Virus record (IMG/VR): IMGVR_UViG_3300046683_000439
Coordinates: 1-34,012 of that record
Strand: one strand, 5' to 3'
DNA length: 34,012 nucleotides
Source of the DNA: a virus
A program made the position numbers and the translations under genes. The first letter of the stretch is position 1. Each line of letters starts with the position of its first letter. Positions 22,816 through 28,597 of this stretch are shown here, piece by piece. Under the pieces are notes generated by a model that did no database searches, was not told the DNA's origin, and saw only the letters and a program-made list of their open reading frames with translations.

Positions 22816-24270
22816 ATGTCTACTGCCTACGTTCCTATCGACTCGATCAGGATTGAAAGCCGCCAGAGGAAAATTCTCGATGATGGGAAGGGGAATGATC
22901 TGATAGAGACTTCTCTTGCGGCACTCAAGGAATCCATTAACCGAGTAGGTTTGATTAATCCTATTACCATCACGAAGAGTCATTTCCTGATCGCAGGGGA
23001 GCGCCGACTGACGGCCTGCCGCGAATTGGGGCACCAGGAGATCTTCGTTAGGTACTTCGAAGACCTCGCCCCCCTGGAGAGGAAGAAAGTCGAACTCGAT
23101 GAGAACATCCGGCGGGCCTCCCTAACCTGGCAGGAACGCGCGATCGCCATCCTGGAATACTATGCCCTTTCCGGCGGGGACTCGGAGCCTTCCTACACCC
23201 AGGACCGTTGCGCGGAGGAACTAAACATCTCCGCTACCAACGTCGGACGGAGCATAACAGTGGCGAAGGTGCTCGTCGAGCAGGAGGATCTCCCGGAGGG
23301 GAAGAGAGACCTTCCCATCTTGATGAGCACTACTCTCAACGAAGCTTACGGGCTGTTAACCAAGCGGCGCGATCGGAAGATCGAGACCGAATTGGCACAG
23401 CTCGACGATGATCCTGTGGGTGGCTTGGCTTCCTCCCCACAGGTGGCGGCGGAGGCTGATACTCCGACCATCAGCCTTGGGGAGGGAGAGGCTTCGCCCC
23501 CACGTTCCCCTCTCCCTCCCACGCCGGCCTTCCGAGAAGGTCCGAGAAGTCCCTGGCTCGACCTCCAACAGTCTGATTTCATCCAATGGATCTCCGACTA
23601 CGATGGGAGGAAATTCAACTTCCTCCACTGTGATTTCCCATACGGCCTCAACATTGGGGAGAGTGCACAGGTCCGCACCGAGACTGGGAGGAACGATGCC
23701 TACCATGATTCTGAGGAATTATACTGGGCACTCTGCCAATGCTTGGCAGCTAATCTTGATCGAGTCCTATTCCCTTCGGCTCATGTCATGTTTTGGTTCT
23801 CGCTCAAGTACTACCAGGCCACGGTTGATTTCTTCAGGACAAATACGGACCTGGTTGTTCAAGACTTCCCCCTCATCTGGCATAAGTCAGACAACAAGGG
23901 TGTCGTACCTGACGCTCAGAGACAGCCGAGAAGGGTCTACGAGACTTGTCTTATTATGGCCCGAGGAGATAGGAAGATCATTCGAGTCGTAAGCAATTGT
24001 TATCCGGCCCCGACCGGGGATCTCCACACCTCCGAGAAGCCGGAACCCATGCTCCGACACTACTTCGGGATGTTCGTAGATGAGTTGACGGAGATGCTGG
24101 ACCCAACCTGTGGGTCTGGCGGAGCCCTCCGCGCTGCGGAATCGTTGGGAGCAAAGCGGGTATTCGGCCTTGACACTTCGAAAGAATTCCTCGATGTCGC
24201 GGCCCAGCAGCTTCTCAATTCCCGTCGGCTTCGCCTAGCCCACGAGCTGCTCAATGCTCGTCAAGCCTGA
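22816..24270 (+). CDS. ParB-like domain fused to DNA methyltransferase
   Basis: This is a 484-aa protein. Residues 5-100 form a ParB/Srx-type domain: VPIDSIRIESRQRKI, VGLINPITI, and LIAGERRLTACRELG (the GERR box). Residues 104-155 contain a helix-turn-helix (CAEELNISATNVGRSITVAK). A Pro/Glu linker spans about 200-245. The methyltransferase part has motif IV CDFPYGLNI (residues 272-280; DFPY is a D/N/SPPY variant) and, later, motif I as DPTCGSGGALRAAE with GLDTS: the IV-before-I order of beta-class amino-methyltransferases (N6-A or N4-C). ParB-methyltransferase fusions occur in phages and probably modify phage DNA against restriction. No restriction partner is seen. Confidence 0.88.
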   Translation: MSTAYVPIDSIRIESRQRKILDDGKGNDLIETSLAALKESINRVGLINPITITKSHFLIAGERRLTACRELGHQEIFVRYFEDLAPLERKKVELDENIRRASLTWQERAIAILEYYALSGGDSEPSYTQDRCAEELNISATNVGRSITVAKVLVEQEDLPEGKRDLPILMSTTLNEAYGLLTKRRDRKIETELAQLDDDPVGGLASSPQVAAEADTPTISLGEGEASPPRSPLPPTPAFREGPRSPWLDLQQSDFIQWISDYDGRKFNFLHCDFPYGLNIGESAQVRTETGRNDAYHDSEELYWALCQCLAANLDRVLFPSAHVMFWFSLKYYQATVDFFRTNTDLVVQDFPLIWHKSDNKGVVPDAQRQPRRVYETCLIMARGDRKIIRVVSNCYPAPTGDLHTSEKPEPMLRHYFGMFVDELTEMLDPTCGSGGALRAAESLGAKRVFGLDTSKEFLDVAAQQLLNSRRLRLAHELLNARQA

Positions 24271-25369
24271 CCATCCAACGGAGGCCTTCTGTGGGATCGC
24301 GATTGTCGGGGAGGCTCCTGGCAGAGAAGAAGAGATGTTCGGCCGACCTTTTGTTGGGACGACAGGTCGGGTCCTTGACAAGATGCTCGAACACGCAGGG
24401 ATTGATAGAAAGGCTTGCTTCCTCACAAACCTCTTCAACGAAAGGCCAGCCAACAATGACCTCAAACTCTTCTGTTCCGACAAGCGAACCGCCCACGGAA
24501 GCTACCCGGCTCGACGTGGCGATCTCGTTCAAAACTATCCAACCTACCCGTGGCCCGCGAAGTACAGCTGGCCCTCACTGGTCCCTGGCGGGTACTGTAG
24601 TTCCGACAAGCTCGGATGCCTTGCCAGACTTCACGCGGAGCTTACAGCGATCGCTCCGACAGTTATTATTGCAGCTGGGAATACGGCCTGCTGGGCGGTC
24701 CTTGGTAGGACAGGAATTAGCAAGCTTAGAGGGTCCGTCGCTTTCGCTAACTATCTCAGTGGGACAAAAGTCCTTCCTACTTTCCATCCATCCGCAGTCA
24801 ATCACGACTGGGCGCTCCGGCCGACGGTCATCGCGGACCTCCAAAAAGCTCTCCGAGAGTCCACAACAAGAGAGCATGTCAGCAAACGGAGAAGAATCAT
24901 CCGAGTCCCAGAGTACATCTTCGAGGCACAGTCCCTCATCAACGAGCTCTGGGGAGCCAAGTCCCTCTCCATCGATATCGAAACCAAGCTCAAAACTATC
25001 GAGTCCATTAGCTTCAGCCCTGATCCTGACCGATCCAGCGTCTTCGTCTTCTACGACAAGGCCAAGCCTGGACGAAGTGCATGGACAAAACAAGAGGAGT
25101 TCCAAATAGTCAAGGGGCTCCGTCAACTCCTAATGAGCCCTATCCCAAAGACGTTCCAGAACGGACTCTACGATCTCCAATACATCTGGTCCTGCTGGAA
25201 GTGCCCGACCAAGAACTTCGAGCATGATACTATGCTACTCCACCACTCCCTGCAACCCGAGCTTCCCAAGTCGTTGGGCTTCATGGGGAGTGTCTACACT
25301 GACGAGATATCCTGGAAATTGCTTCGGGCCCTCGTCGATTCCGAGACTACAAAACGAGAGGATGAATAG
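24254..25369 (+). CDS. uracil-DNA glycosylase fused to DnaQ/PolA-type 3'-5' exonuclease
   Basis: This is a 371-aa two-domain protein. Residues 13-205 are a family 4/5-like uracil-DNA glycosylase: IVGEAPGREEEMFGRPFVG, ACFLTNLFNERPANND and, near 177, FHPSA. From about 220 a DEDD exonuclease follows: SLSIDIETK (ExoI, D-x-E), FQNGLYDLQYIW (ExoII, N-x3-D) and HDTMLLHHSLQPELPKSLGF (ExoIII). The exonuclease looks like the proofreading domain of family A polymerases. The polymerase itself is a separate gene, 540 bases on. Uracil removal and proofreading joined in one chain would act at the replication fork. It overlaps the methyltransferase gene by 17 bases. Confidence 0.82.
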   Translation: MLVKPDHPTEAFCGIAIVGEAPGREEEMFGRPFVGTTGRVLDKMLEHAGIDRKACFLTNLFNERPANNDLKLFCSDKRTAHGSYPARRGDLVQNYPTYPWPAKYSWPSLVPGGYCSSDKLGCLARLHAELTAIAPTVIIAAGNTACWAVLGRTGISKLRGSVAFANYLSGTKVLPTFHPSAVNHDWALRPTVIADLQKALRESTTREHVSKRRRIIRVPEYIFEAQSLINELWGAKSLSIDIETKLKTIESISFSPDPDRSSVFVFYDKAKPGRSAWTKQEEFQIVKGLRQLLMSPIPKTFQNGLYDLQYIWSCWKCPTKNFEHDTMLLHHSLQPELPKSLGFMGSVYTDEISWKLLRALVDSETTKREDE

Positions 25370-25371
25370 TG

Positions 25372-25599
25372 ATGAAACTCCGAACCATCTGCCTACTCTT
25401 GGCAGCAACCCTTTCCCTGGGAGCAACGACAGATGCCCAAAGCACGAAGCACTGCCGACATCTTGCGGTCCCTGCCACCCGTCAAGGTGGATACCTTGCA
25501 GCAGTTTGTTGTTGCGCCGACTCCGCAGGAAATCTCTGCTGTGTTCAGCAAGGTTACTGCGGAAACGTACTCCTCGCCTGCCCGAGCTGTAATTACTAA
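25372..25599 (+). CDS. small exported Cys-rich peptide (overlaps next gene in another frame)
   Basis: This is a 75-aa product starting MKLRTICLLLAATLSLGATT: a typical signal peptide, cleavage expected near residue 22 (TDAQ). The mature part holds nine or more Cys (VCCCADSAGNLCCVQQGYCG, ACPSCN), a density found in metal-binding or disulfide-rich peptides. GAGAGG lies ten bases upstream. Bases 25433-25599 are also read in another frame by the DUF7768-like gene. I recall similar short Cys-rich phage proteins with CCC...CC...C endings, but cannot name a family. The unused 63 bases at its start would otherwise be noncoding. Confidence 0.55.
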   Translation: MKLRTICLLLAATLSLGATTDAQSTKHCRHLAVPATRQGGYLAAVCCCADSAGNLCCVQQGYCGNVLLACPSCNY

Positions 25600-25912
25600 G
25601 CTGCCCTTGGTTGTGGTGGAGTCCCCTCTCAAGGGGCTCCATCGCCACATCGCGGAGAGCTACGCAGAGGCAGCCTGCTGGGACTGCATGACCCGAGGAG
25701 AAGCCCCATTCGCCAGCCACCTCATCTACACTCGCTACCTCGACGACAACAACCCTGAGTCCCGTCAGATAGGGATGCACTGTGGAAGGGCCTGGATTCG
25801 CGCTGTGGACTACATGGTGGTCTATACTGATCTTGGGGTCTCGGAGGGGATGGCGATCGCGGTAGGCATCGCCGAGAAGCTCAAAAAGATAGTGGAGTTC
25901 CGTACCCTGTGA
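25433..25912 (+). CDS. DUF7768-like (nucleoside deoxyribosyltransferase-fold) protein
   Basis: This is a 159-aa protein from ATG 25433. Residues 57-159 match a small phage family: LPLVVVESPLKGLHRHIAES, CWDCMTRGEAPFASHLIYTR, YLDDNNPESRQIGMHCGRAW, AVDYMVVYTDLGVSEGMAIA and the end KIVEFRTL. It resembles the DUF7768/DUF4406 type, related to nucleoside 2-deoxyribosyltransferases. Conserved ESPLKG, GEAPFASH and DLG-S-GM lie near the presumed nucleotide pocket. A nucleotide-handling role beside the polymerase is plausible. The N-terminal 56 residues are an extension; a shorter start is possible. Confidence 0.7.
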   Translation: MPKARSTADILRSLPPVKVDTLQQFVVAPTPQEISAVFSKVTAETYSSPARAVITKLPLVVVESPLKGLHRHIAESYAEAACWDCMTRGEAPFASHLIYTRYLDDNNPESRQIGMHCGRAWIRAVDYMVVYTDLGVSEGMAIAVGIAEKLKKIVEFRTL

Positions 25913-27504
25913 AAGTCTTCGACACAACGAGGGACAACGCCTGGGCCTTGACTGGCGCTATGGCGGGAGCAGTCTACAATGGGCTCGATTCCGCCCTGAC
26001 AGCGGAAATCCGGGACGTGCTCCTCCCTCAATTGGAGCCCCACTCCAAACTAATCTACGATTTCGAGAGGGCCTGTCAGGCCCCAGCCCTTTACATGATG
26101 CTCCGGGGCCTTCGAGTAGATCCCTTCGCGAGAGGTGCTGCGATCCGCCACTACGAGAAATCTATCCTCCGGTGTCAGTGGATGCTGGACAGGTTGGCCT
26201 CGGTCTTTGGGATGACTGGACTTAACCCTAACTCTCCTAAGCAGTTGAAGGAGTTCTTCTATGGCCGTCTTAAGATTCCCGAGCAGACTACCTATTACAG
26301 GGGAGAGCGAAAGGTTACTACCAACCGGGATGCCCTCGAAAAGATCCGAGACCACTATTTCGTCGCAGTCCCCTATATCTCTCTCATCCTGGCTATTAGA
26401 GACTTTGTTAAGACTCGGAGCGTCCTCGTCTCAGGGGTGGACCCTGACGGTAGAATGCGGACCTCCTACAATATTGGAGGCACAAACTCTGGAAGGTGGA
26501 GCTCTTCCGCCAATGCGTTTGGAACTGGTACTAACTTCCAGAACCTCCGGGAAGACCTGCGCCAGATATTCATCGCTGATGAGGGGAAGAAGTTCGCGTA
26601 TATTGATCTCGAAACTGCTGAAAGCCGTGTGGTCGGTGCGAGGGGATGGCAAGTAACGAGGGCGAAAGGGCCGGGGAGGGATGGATATTGGAGGGCCTGT
26701 GAAGATGGCGACCTCCATACCTATGTGGCGAAGATCGTCTGGCCGAATTTCTCCTGGACGGGGGACAAGGTTGCCGATAGGAGGATCGCCGATCAAATCT
26801 TCTACCGGCACCATTCCTACCGACAAACGACAAAGGTGGGAGGCCATGGGAGCAACTATCTCGGGAGGCCTCCCACCATGTCCAAGCATACCAAGATCCC
26901 GGAACCTATGATGGCGGCCTTTCAGGCCTCATACTTCAAGGGCTTTCCAGAGATACCAGAGTGGCACATGGCAACCATCCGCACGTTGATGACGGAGGCT
27001 GCTATCACTACTCTCCTCGGCCGGAAGAGGGTTTTCTTTGGTCGCCTTGACGACGAAGCAACCTGGCGAGAGGGTGTCGCCTACGAACCACAGTCAGTGG
27101 TGGGGGATACTCTTAACCTTGGCGCGTGGCGGATCTGGTACTACTTGTTCCCGAAGGTGGAGTTGGTGGCCCAGATCCACGACGCGGTGCTTGTCCAATA
27201 TGATGAGGCTGATGAAGCGGAGGTGCTGCCGCAGGCTCGGAAACTGATGGAGGTTCCAATCCAGGTCGATGAGAGGTTGCTCATCATCCCCACGGAGGCC
27301 CTAGTTGGATGGAACTGGAACAAGGCCCACGACTCCAACCCCGATGGGCTCAAAAAATGGACAGGGACAGATGGTAGAACCCGTACCAATAACCAGGGCC
27401 TCTCCCTCTTGGATAGACCTGTTCATCAAATACTGCCGGGACTTACCCACTCCACCAATCTTCAAAGAGTGGGGAGCGTTGGCAGCCCTCTCGGCAGTCG
27501 TTGA
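25909..27504 (+). CDS. family A DNA polymerase lacking its exonuclease domain
   Basis: This is a 531-aa protein from GTG 25909 (GTGA overlap with upstream stop). Polymerase motifs: TNSGRWSS at 192-199, FQNLR at 210-214, motif A AYIDLETAE (Asp233, Glu238), motif B YRQTTKVGGHGSNYLG (Arg305, Lys309) with His313 where E. coli Pol I has Phe762, and motif C AQIHDAVLVQ, with Asp425 but Ala426 in place of the usual Glu. The palm metal ligands (D233, D425) remain. There is no 3'-5' exonuclease; that domain is the C-terminus of the glycosylase fusion just upstream. The last 45 residues are odd, run 134 bases into the helicase frame and have no polymerase features. Confidence 0.88.
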   Translation: MKVFDTTRDNAWALTGAMAGAVYNGLDSALTAEIRDVLLPQLEPHSKLIYDFERACQAPALYMMLRGLRVDPFARGAAIRHYEKSILRCQWMLDRLASVFGMTGLNPNSPKQLKEFFYGRLKIPEQTTYYRGERKVTTNRDALEKIRDHYFVAVPYISLILAIRDFVKTRSVLVSGVDPDGRMRTSYNIGGTNSGRWSSSANAFGTGTNFQNLREDLRQIFIADEGKKFAYIDLETAESRVVGARGWQVTRAKGPGRDGYWRACEDGDLHTYVAKIVWPNFSWTGDKVADRRIADQIFYRHHSYRQTTKVGGHGSNYLGRPPTMSKHTKIPEPMMAAFQASYFKGFPEIPEWHMATIRTLMTEAAITTLLGRKRVFFGRLDDEATWREGVAYEPQSVVGDTLNLGAWRIWYYLFPKVELVAQIHDAVLVQYDEADEAEVLPQARKLMEVPIQVDERLLIIPTEALVGWNWNKAHDSNPDGLKKWTGTDGRTRTNNQGLSLLDRPVHQILPGLTHSTNLQRVGSVGSPLGSR

Positions 27505-28597
27505 GAGACGAGCGTGGGTCCACTCTGGCCATGGGAATATCTGGCCGAACATCTTTGTCCTTCTGGCGGCACCACCAGGAGGGGGGAAGACCATCATCAC
27601 TCGCGCCATCACCGATCTGATCCACGACATGAAAGTCGACGATTCCCAGAAGCCCAGGCTCGCCGCCAACTCCATGACAAAGAGTGCAATGGTGGATACG
27701 CTCGAGGAAGCAATCCGAGTCCGAGTGATCCCCGGGGAGGGGATCGAAGAGTGGCACTCGATGGCAATTATCAACTCGGAATTCGGGGTGGTCTTCCCGG
27801 CTTATGATCAGGCCTTCCTCTCCCACCTCTCCCACTTCTGGGACTGTGAGAGGCAGTTCGAGGAGCGGACGAGGACCAACAAGAGCAAGTTCATCGCCAA
27901 CCCTCACGTGATGATGTTAGGGGGTATCCAGCCCAAACTCTTGAACGATACCTTTCCTGAGAGTAGTTGGGGCCAGGGCTTCTTTGCCCGCACTACGATC
28001 GTCTACGTCTCGGAGATGCCGAAGGTCAAGTTCTTCCGCAAGACCCTCCCCGACTTCACCGTCAAGACGCAATTAGTCGCAGGTCTTGAACAACTCTCTG
28101 AGAGATGGGGGGAAATATTCTTCTCCCCACTTACCATAGAAGCGTTTGAGACATGGGAGGCAAATGACTTCCAGCCCTTCCCAACTCATCCGCGATTGGC
28201 TGGGTACGTCGAGAGGAGAAAGATACACGCAATTAAACTTGCGATCCTCTTTTGCCTTTCCTCGGGCCACGAGCTGATCGAACTCGAAGACCTCAAGCGG
28301 GCAAGGTCCCTTCTCGAGAGGACGGAGGAAAACTTGGCCGACCTGTTCGTTGCGATGGGGAGTCATGAATTCTCCGCAGTTATGGATGAGACGGTACACT
28401 TCGTCCTGAGAGAGTACGCCCGGACCAAGAAGGCCGTCGGGCAGCAGGCATTGATGGCATTTGTCTCTCGTCGGGCGCAGCCCCTCCACGTCGAGCCGAT
28501 TATCAATACCCTGATTGGGAGTGGCCGACTGCGCCTTGCAACCCCGGAGAACATCATGACAGATCAGCGGGCCTTTGTGCCAGGGACGGAGCTATGA
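27371..28597 (+). CDS. DUF3987-like replicative helicase/ATPase
   Basis: This is a 408-aa protein. Walker A APPGGGKT at 67-74, Walker B-like MAIINSEFGVV near 128, an arginine-finger-like FFARTTIV, and the lead SPSWIDLFIKYCRDLPTPP, EWGALAALSAVVERRAWV all match the group annotated DUF3987, found in mobile elements and phages where it replaces DnaB-type helicases. It probably unwinds DNA for the family A polymerase. No TOPRIM primase was seen in the window. Start is uncertain: ATG 27371 (AGGGA upstream) is preferred over ATG 27344 and TTG 27305; all lie within the polymerase gene. Confidence 0.8.
   Translation: MVEPVPITRASPSWIDLFIKYCRDLPTPPIFKEWGALAALSAVVERRAWVHSGHGNIWPNIFVLLAAPPGGGKTIITRAITDLIHDMKVDDSQKPRLAANSMTKSAMVDTLEEAIRVRVIPGEGIEEWHSMAIINSEFGVVFPAYDQAFLSHLSHFWDCERQFEERTRTNKSKFIANPHVMMLGGIQPKLLNDTFPESSWGQGFFARTTIVYVSEMPKVKFFRKTLPDFTVKTQLVAGLEQLSERWGEIFFSPLTIEAFETWEANDFQPFPTHPRLAGYVERRKIHAIKLAILFCLSSGHELIELEDLKRARSLLERTEENLADLFVAMGSHEFSAVMDETVHFVLREYARTKKAVGQQALMAFVSRRAQPLHVEPIINTLIGSGRLRLATPENIMTDQRAFVPGTEL

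Follow-up and report, generated by a model that had tools for sequence, protein, structure and literature searches.

The window analysed here is the whole 34,012-nucleotide stretch of the virus record IMGVR_UViG_3300046683_000439. Two of its genes, UDX and Pol, together encode a UDG domain, a DEDD-type exonuclease and a PolA domain, which phrog_17 matches and sequence motifs place in collinear order across the pair, as in PHROG 17 (Table 1). Pfam matched UDG to UDX residues 15–191 (4.7e-21) and DNA_pol_A to Pol (3.1e-25). Along phrog_17, annotated as 'DNA polymerase', UDX covered positions 482–788 (UDG and exonuclease) and Pol covered positions 809–1239. A single polypeptide is the usual state of PHROG 17, but the window carries two ORFs. 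A preliminary description of the sequence had reported separate UDG-exonuclease and polymerase ORFs with a gene between them, and this was borne out: Pfam and PHROG recovered both ORFs and identified the intervening gene as DUF7768, whose stop overlaps the GTG start of Pol by 4 nt.

Table 1. Features of the split polymerase locus and its neighbours (window coordinates).
Feature	Coordinates	Strand	Evidence
Upstream neighbour: ParB-N and DNA methyltransferase in one gene	22816..24270	+	Pfam
UDX: UDG domain and N-terminal part of PolA-type 3'-5' exonuclease, 371 aa	24254..25369	+	Pfam, PHROG, AF2
UDX family-4-like UDG domain, residues 1-207	24254..24874	+	Pfam UDG 4.7e-21, motif table
Exonuclease motif I, D-x-E (D241, E243), on UDX	24974..24982	+	motif table
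Exonuclease motif II, N-x3-D (N303, D307), on UDX	25160..25174	+	motif table
UDX charged C-terminal tail KREDE, encoded by purine-rich Shine-Dalgarno-like GAGAGG; stop TAG 25367-25369	25356..25373	+	
Intervening gene DUF7768, nucleoside 2-deoxyribosyltransferase-like, 159 aa	25433..25912	+	Pfam DUF7768 1.9e-23; phrog_355 3e-18
Pol: exonuclease motif III and family A polymerase domain, GTG start, 531 aa	25909..27504	+	Pfam, PHROG
Exonuclease motif III, Y-x3-D (Y23, D27; YNGLD), on Pol chain	25975..25989	+	motif table
Pol motif A aspartate D233	26605..26607	+	motif table
Pol motif B, R-x3-K-x7-Y (R305, K309, Y317)	26821..26859	+	motif table
Pol motif C, H-D (H424, D425)	27178..27183	+	motif table
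Downstream neighbour: DUF3987 / phrog_14296 primase-helicase	27305..28597	+	Pfam, PHROG

A neighbour of the ParB-N/methyltransferase kind is also found 5' of the polymerase in several relatives, and a DUF3987/primase gene lies directly 3' of the single-chain polymerase in several fused relatives. A further ORF of 76 aa (25369–25599), whose start resembles a signal peptide (MKLRTICLLLAATLSLGATTDAQS), lies between UDX and Pol. It comes after the Shine-Dalgarno-like stretch in UDX and overlaps DUF7768 in another reading frame; it may have arisen by chance. Both proteins are 100% identical to those of the window in the IMG/VR contigs L009 and L010, and the strain variant L009 carries a 44-bp deletion (window 25390–25433) upstream of and into the DUF7768 start codon.

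The exonuclease domain itself is broken, because UDX carries only motifs I and II and motif III is on the Pol chain. Motif III lies near the Pol N-terminus, where Y23 and D27 are the counterparts of E. coli Y497 and D501. A profile of the family aligned to Klenow over both exonuclease and polymerase (1.4e-82), with the three motifs collinear with those of E. coli PolI and motif III on the second chain, and Foldseek ranked Klenow above RNase D, confirming that the exonuclease is of the PolA type. The earlier statement that the UDG ORF carries the proofreading exonuclease holds for motifs I and II but not for the domain as a whole, and the statement that the polymerase gene has no exonuclease domain fails in this respect, as the Pol N-terminus retains motif III.

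The UDG half of UDX retains GEAPG, PFVG, TN and HPS intact. With these motifs preserved and the exonuclease being Klenow-type, both domain assignments of the preliminary description stand. The AF2 model of UDX had a mean pLDDT of 91.6 and a pTM of 0.87; its tail (residues 359–371) was disordered and was the only region below 50. Its UDG half resembled Thermotoga maritima UDG 1vk2 (Z 20.6, rmsd 1.6), and with this fold and the GExPG/HPS motifs it is family-4-like, although UdgX entries scored like family 4 in the structure comparison. No CxxC for the family-4 Fe-S cluster precedes GEAPG in the window ORF, and the structural match begins at residue 29 of 1vk2. The solved phage polymerase phiLo (PDB 9qhs) matched the UDX model from its N-terminus; one PDB match list contained UDG entries only and was therefore uninformative on the exonuclease half. 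All four UDG residues checked (E, F, N, H) were retained in 61 of 82 clade members. Since the motifs are degenerate in the others, glycosylase activity is not universal in the clade, and these sequences suggest that some lineages may have lost it while keeping the domain, recalling poxvirus D4 (PMC10253040).

We surveyed relatives for the state of the three domains. Among 129 complete loci, nearly all distinct, 93 were fused. In the split ones, the break lay between exonuclease motifs II and III in 21, within the polymerase domain in 10, where exonuclease meets polymerase in 3, and between the UDG and exonuclease domains in 2. Single-chain UDG-Exo-Pol was found, for example, in Microcystis phage Mel-JY34, phage MW202489, a Desulfofustis phage and archaeal virus vir526. 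The joining of UDG and exonuclease in one chain, first presented as the novelty of this locus, is thus the usual arrangement among relatives, and it has been published for PaBG (PMC7412058). The survey tree required at least 12 changes of state. A single clade (SH-aLRT 99) takes in 19 of the 21 loci broken between motifs II and III, among them the window and Caulobacter phage Kuura, and the other two, L104 and L078, fell outside it as cuts of separate origin. Stop-codon reassignment was considered for L104 and rejected, as all three stops are in use and its stop is TAA followed by CCC ATG. Polymerase-domain cuts between LQN and motif A had at least four origins. Breaks at this second recurrent site were noted in L005, L096, L101, L110, L117, L119, L122, L136 and L145, often with overlapping stop and start codons. 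Other irregular loci were L160 and L162, where UDG is an ORF separate from Exo-Pol and close relatives (L115/L116) are fused, and L029 (5812–8199), where a Pol fragment has an insertion of ~300 aa in the polymerase domain, possibly an intein.

Scanning again with clade members, and including one genome contig (L168), brought in another 74 exonuclease-cut loci and not one fused member. Fused loci in this second set were limited to L169 and L170, both retrieved by the genome scan, which used a broader alignment. The contig L168 is binned in a Sphingomonadales MAG, which together with Kuura hints at alphaproteobacterial hosts. After removal of duplicates, 82 distinct clade members, including the window and the isolate Kuura, were compared. 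Every complete locus of the clade was split at the point between motifs II and III, none was fused, and the UDX and Pol genes were neighbours in each. As most records are metagenomic, the split could be suspected to be a broken gene, an assembly error or a strain artefact. However, the isolate Kuura, repeat assemblies and 82 distinct relatives all show the same cut, with invariant catalytic residues, and this clade-wide conservation refutes the artefact reading, leaving it virtually no probability.

Both halves are strongly constrained. Each of the six exonuclease residues (motif I D and E, motif II N and D, motif III Y and D) was invariant in 82/82 members across the two chains, as were the motif A aspartate, the motif B arginine and lysine, and the motif C aspartate of the polymerase. 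Pairwise distances of the UDX and Pol halves were correlated, with r of 0.79 in the clade and 0.92 in fused relatives. A search for PolA and PolB that covered 14 split or window records, among them the whole genomes of Kuura and Vibrio phage VS-ABTNL-3, recovered neither an additional PolA nor any PolB. Within this search for PolA and PolB, the split pair is the only detected DNA polymerase of the window phage. These data also bear on whether the two proteins have ceased to form one enzyme, with UDX acting on its own as a uracil-repair exonuclease and Pol as a polymerase devoid of exonuclease. The two genes are separate, and a stand-alone, soluble PolA-type exonuclease from a viral metagenome, ExnV1, has been crystallised (PMC9629493). 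Yet the exonuclease residue set is incomplete in either chain and all of it is invariant in both, the motif III residue present in ExnV1 is absent from UDX, and the two genes adjoin or lie near each other in every complete locus, making such independence improbable.

The junction between the halves varied in length: in some members the two genes overlap or abut, and in others up to 1.7 kb separates them, occupied by one or more unrelated genes. Gaps of about −74 to 15 nt were found in L276, L279, L294, L295, L297–L300 and L302. Where the genes abut, the typical sequence was like AAGAGGGATGAnTAATG, with a Shine-Dalgarno-like stretch in the UDX tail and a stop/start overlap, which was TAATG in several clade members. 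The KREDE-type tail with its Shine-Dalgarno-like coding stretch recurred in most members. We dropped the conserved charged tails (KKDE) as a candidate protein motif and did not count them as functional evidence, because in most members they coincide with the Shine-Dalgarno-like stretch for the next gene. Joining of the two products by programmed frameshifting or ribosome bypass, which the tight stop/start overlaps of some members could permit, is extremely improbable, as many members have gaps of up to 1.7 kb holding intact genes and the junctions carry a Shine-Dalgarno-like sequence and a start codon.

The inserted genes varied: DUF7768 or DUF1937 deoxyribosyltransferase-like genes, HNH endonuclease, DNA methyltransferase, a metallophosphoesterase-like gene (by inspection) and unknown genes. 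A deoxyribosyltransferase-like gene was scored in the junction of 9/19 first clade loci and 19/74 later loci under the rule of the script, which scored five more as far because their offsets were negative, the genes overlapping the 5' end of a Pol ORF that had been extended too far. Such a gene (DUF7768/DUF1937 type) also abuts the UDG-Exo-Pol gene in L046, L064, L085, L102, L110, L156 and L166, most of them fused, and this recurrent proximity suggests a functional link in nucleotide metabolism. HNH genes occupy the junctions of L018, L119 and, by inspection, L138. Together with the status of phage polymerase genes as known intron sites and the suggestion of an intron by the authors who described the split polymerase of OM43 phages (PMC10580990), these HNH genes could point to an intron or intein-like element whose removal splices the halves into one polypeptide. 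This is very unlikely. Rfam, which covers described families, gave no group I or II intron match, either for the window or for 11 split loci. Pfam found only UDG and DNA_pol_A and no intein/Hint domain in the fragments, whose extra ends comprise only ~15–25 residues. The inserts are ordinary unrelated genes, and the stop/start overlaps of several clade members leave nothing to splice out.

Taken together, these results favour the reading, to which we assign a probability of roughly 85%, that UDX and Pol are two subunits of one phage replicase that derive from a single-chain UDG-Exo-Pol ancestor, associate non-covalently and share a proofreading site. It is supported by single-chain relatives that hold the same parts in the same order and in the same place by DUF3987, by the clade-wide split with invariant residues over both chains and correlated distances, and by the TAATG coupling and the missing second PolA or PolB in the 14 records. 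Structure prediction, for UDX alone and for the fused relative L034, lends further support: the L034 model (pLDDT 93.5) had its two lowest 10-residue blocks at 341–350 and 551–560, which coincide with the two recurrent split sites. The assembled complex that the preliminary description proposed instead of one polypeptide is therefore the best reading of the data, and the physical association of the chains is what we infer from them.

In the mechanism we propose, an ancestral single-chain enzyme would have broken in a flexible loop that separates motif II of the exonuclease from motif III, and each subunit would now be translated separately from a translationally coupled operon, the two then associating non-covalently. 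Both chains would contribute to a composite 3'-5' exonuclease site: UDX would supply the metal-binding residues of motifs I and II, and the N-terminal helix of Pol the motif III Tyr and Asp. Proofreading would then need assembly, since the site is shared by two chains. The UDG domain probably equips the polymerase with a uracil-binding, uracil-excising or DNA-holding module. Against the two-subunit reading, UDX might instead have a separate role. The junction would accept extra genes, most often nucleoside-deoxyribosyltransferase-like ones such as the DUF7768 gene of the window. More doubtful is the idea that the two chains are functional rather than neutral, with Pol alone non-proofreading, UDX a replaceable subunit that brings proofreading and uracil sensing, fidelity set via the subunit ratio and the junction a slot for nucleotide-metabolism genes.

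If the two-subunit reading is true, a proofreading site divided over two gene products and fixed in a clade is a natural experiment in turning a single-chain enzyme into a complex, and it offers a natural cut point for engineering two-part proofreading polymerases. Phage polymerase genes break repeatedly at two loops (motif II/motif III and LQN/motif A), which then accept extra genes. Gene annotation suffers from the split, as in Kuura, whose UDX is annotated as hypothetical.

In T4-like phages with a split gp43, the gene of the family B replicase is in two parts with a gene between them. A split family B polymerase has also been described in MIJ3, with a split intein (PMC6892783). Both resemble the window in having a replicase gene in two with a gene between, but the window polymerase belongs to family A, and no intein was found in it. 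The OM43 phages MEP401 and MEP402 have a PolA divided over two ORFs that flank a small gene (PMC10580990). Their PolA has no UDG, however, and the MEP401 break separates LQN from motif A within the polymerase domain. The polymerase-domain cuts of the surveyed UDG-Exo-Pol relatives fall at this site too, although MEP401 is unrelated to them, whereas the window is cut before exonuclease motif III. Precedents in the literature for a UDG fused to a phage polymerase or for a split PolA were limited to PaBG, MEP401/402 and MIJ3, and no description of a cut between motifs II and III was found in the literature searched, subscription papers being mostly outside reach.

UDX resembles ExnV1 (PDB 7r0t, PMC9629493) in that the latter is a PolA exonuclease fragment that folds without a polymerase domain, but ExnV1 lacks a UDG and includes the motif III residue, whereas UDX has the UDG and no motif III. 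The poxvirus D4 UDG (PMC10253040) is likewise attached to a viral replicase and also acts in processivity, in an unrelated replication complex; by analogy, the UDG of UDX may work like D4, though it is not a member of that system. The PHROG 17 polymerases, the published UDG-domain DNA polymerase I of jumbo phage PaBG (PMC7412058) and phiLo (PDB 9qhs) have the same order of UDG, Klenow-type exonuclease and PolA as UDX and Pol, but in one chain, whereas the window has two chains cut within the exonuclease domain. The joining of UDG and exonuclease is already known; what is new is that the break falls within the exonuclease domain.
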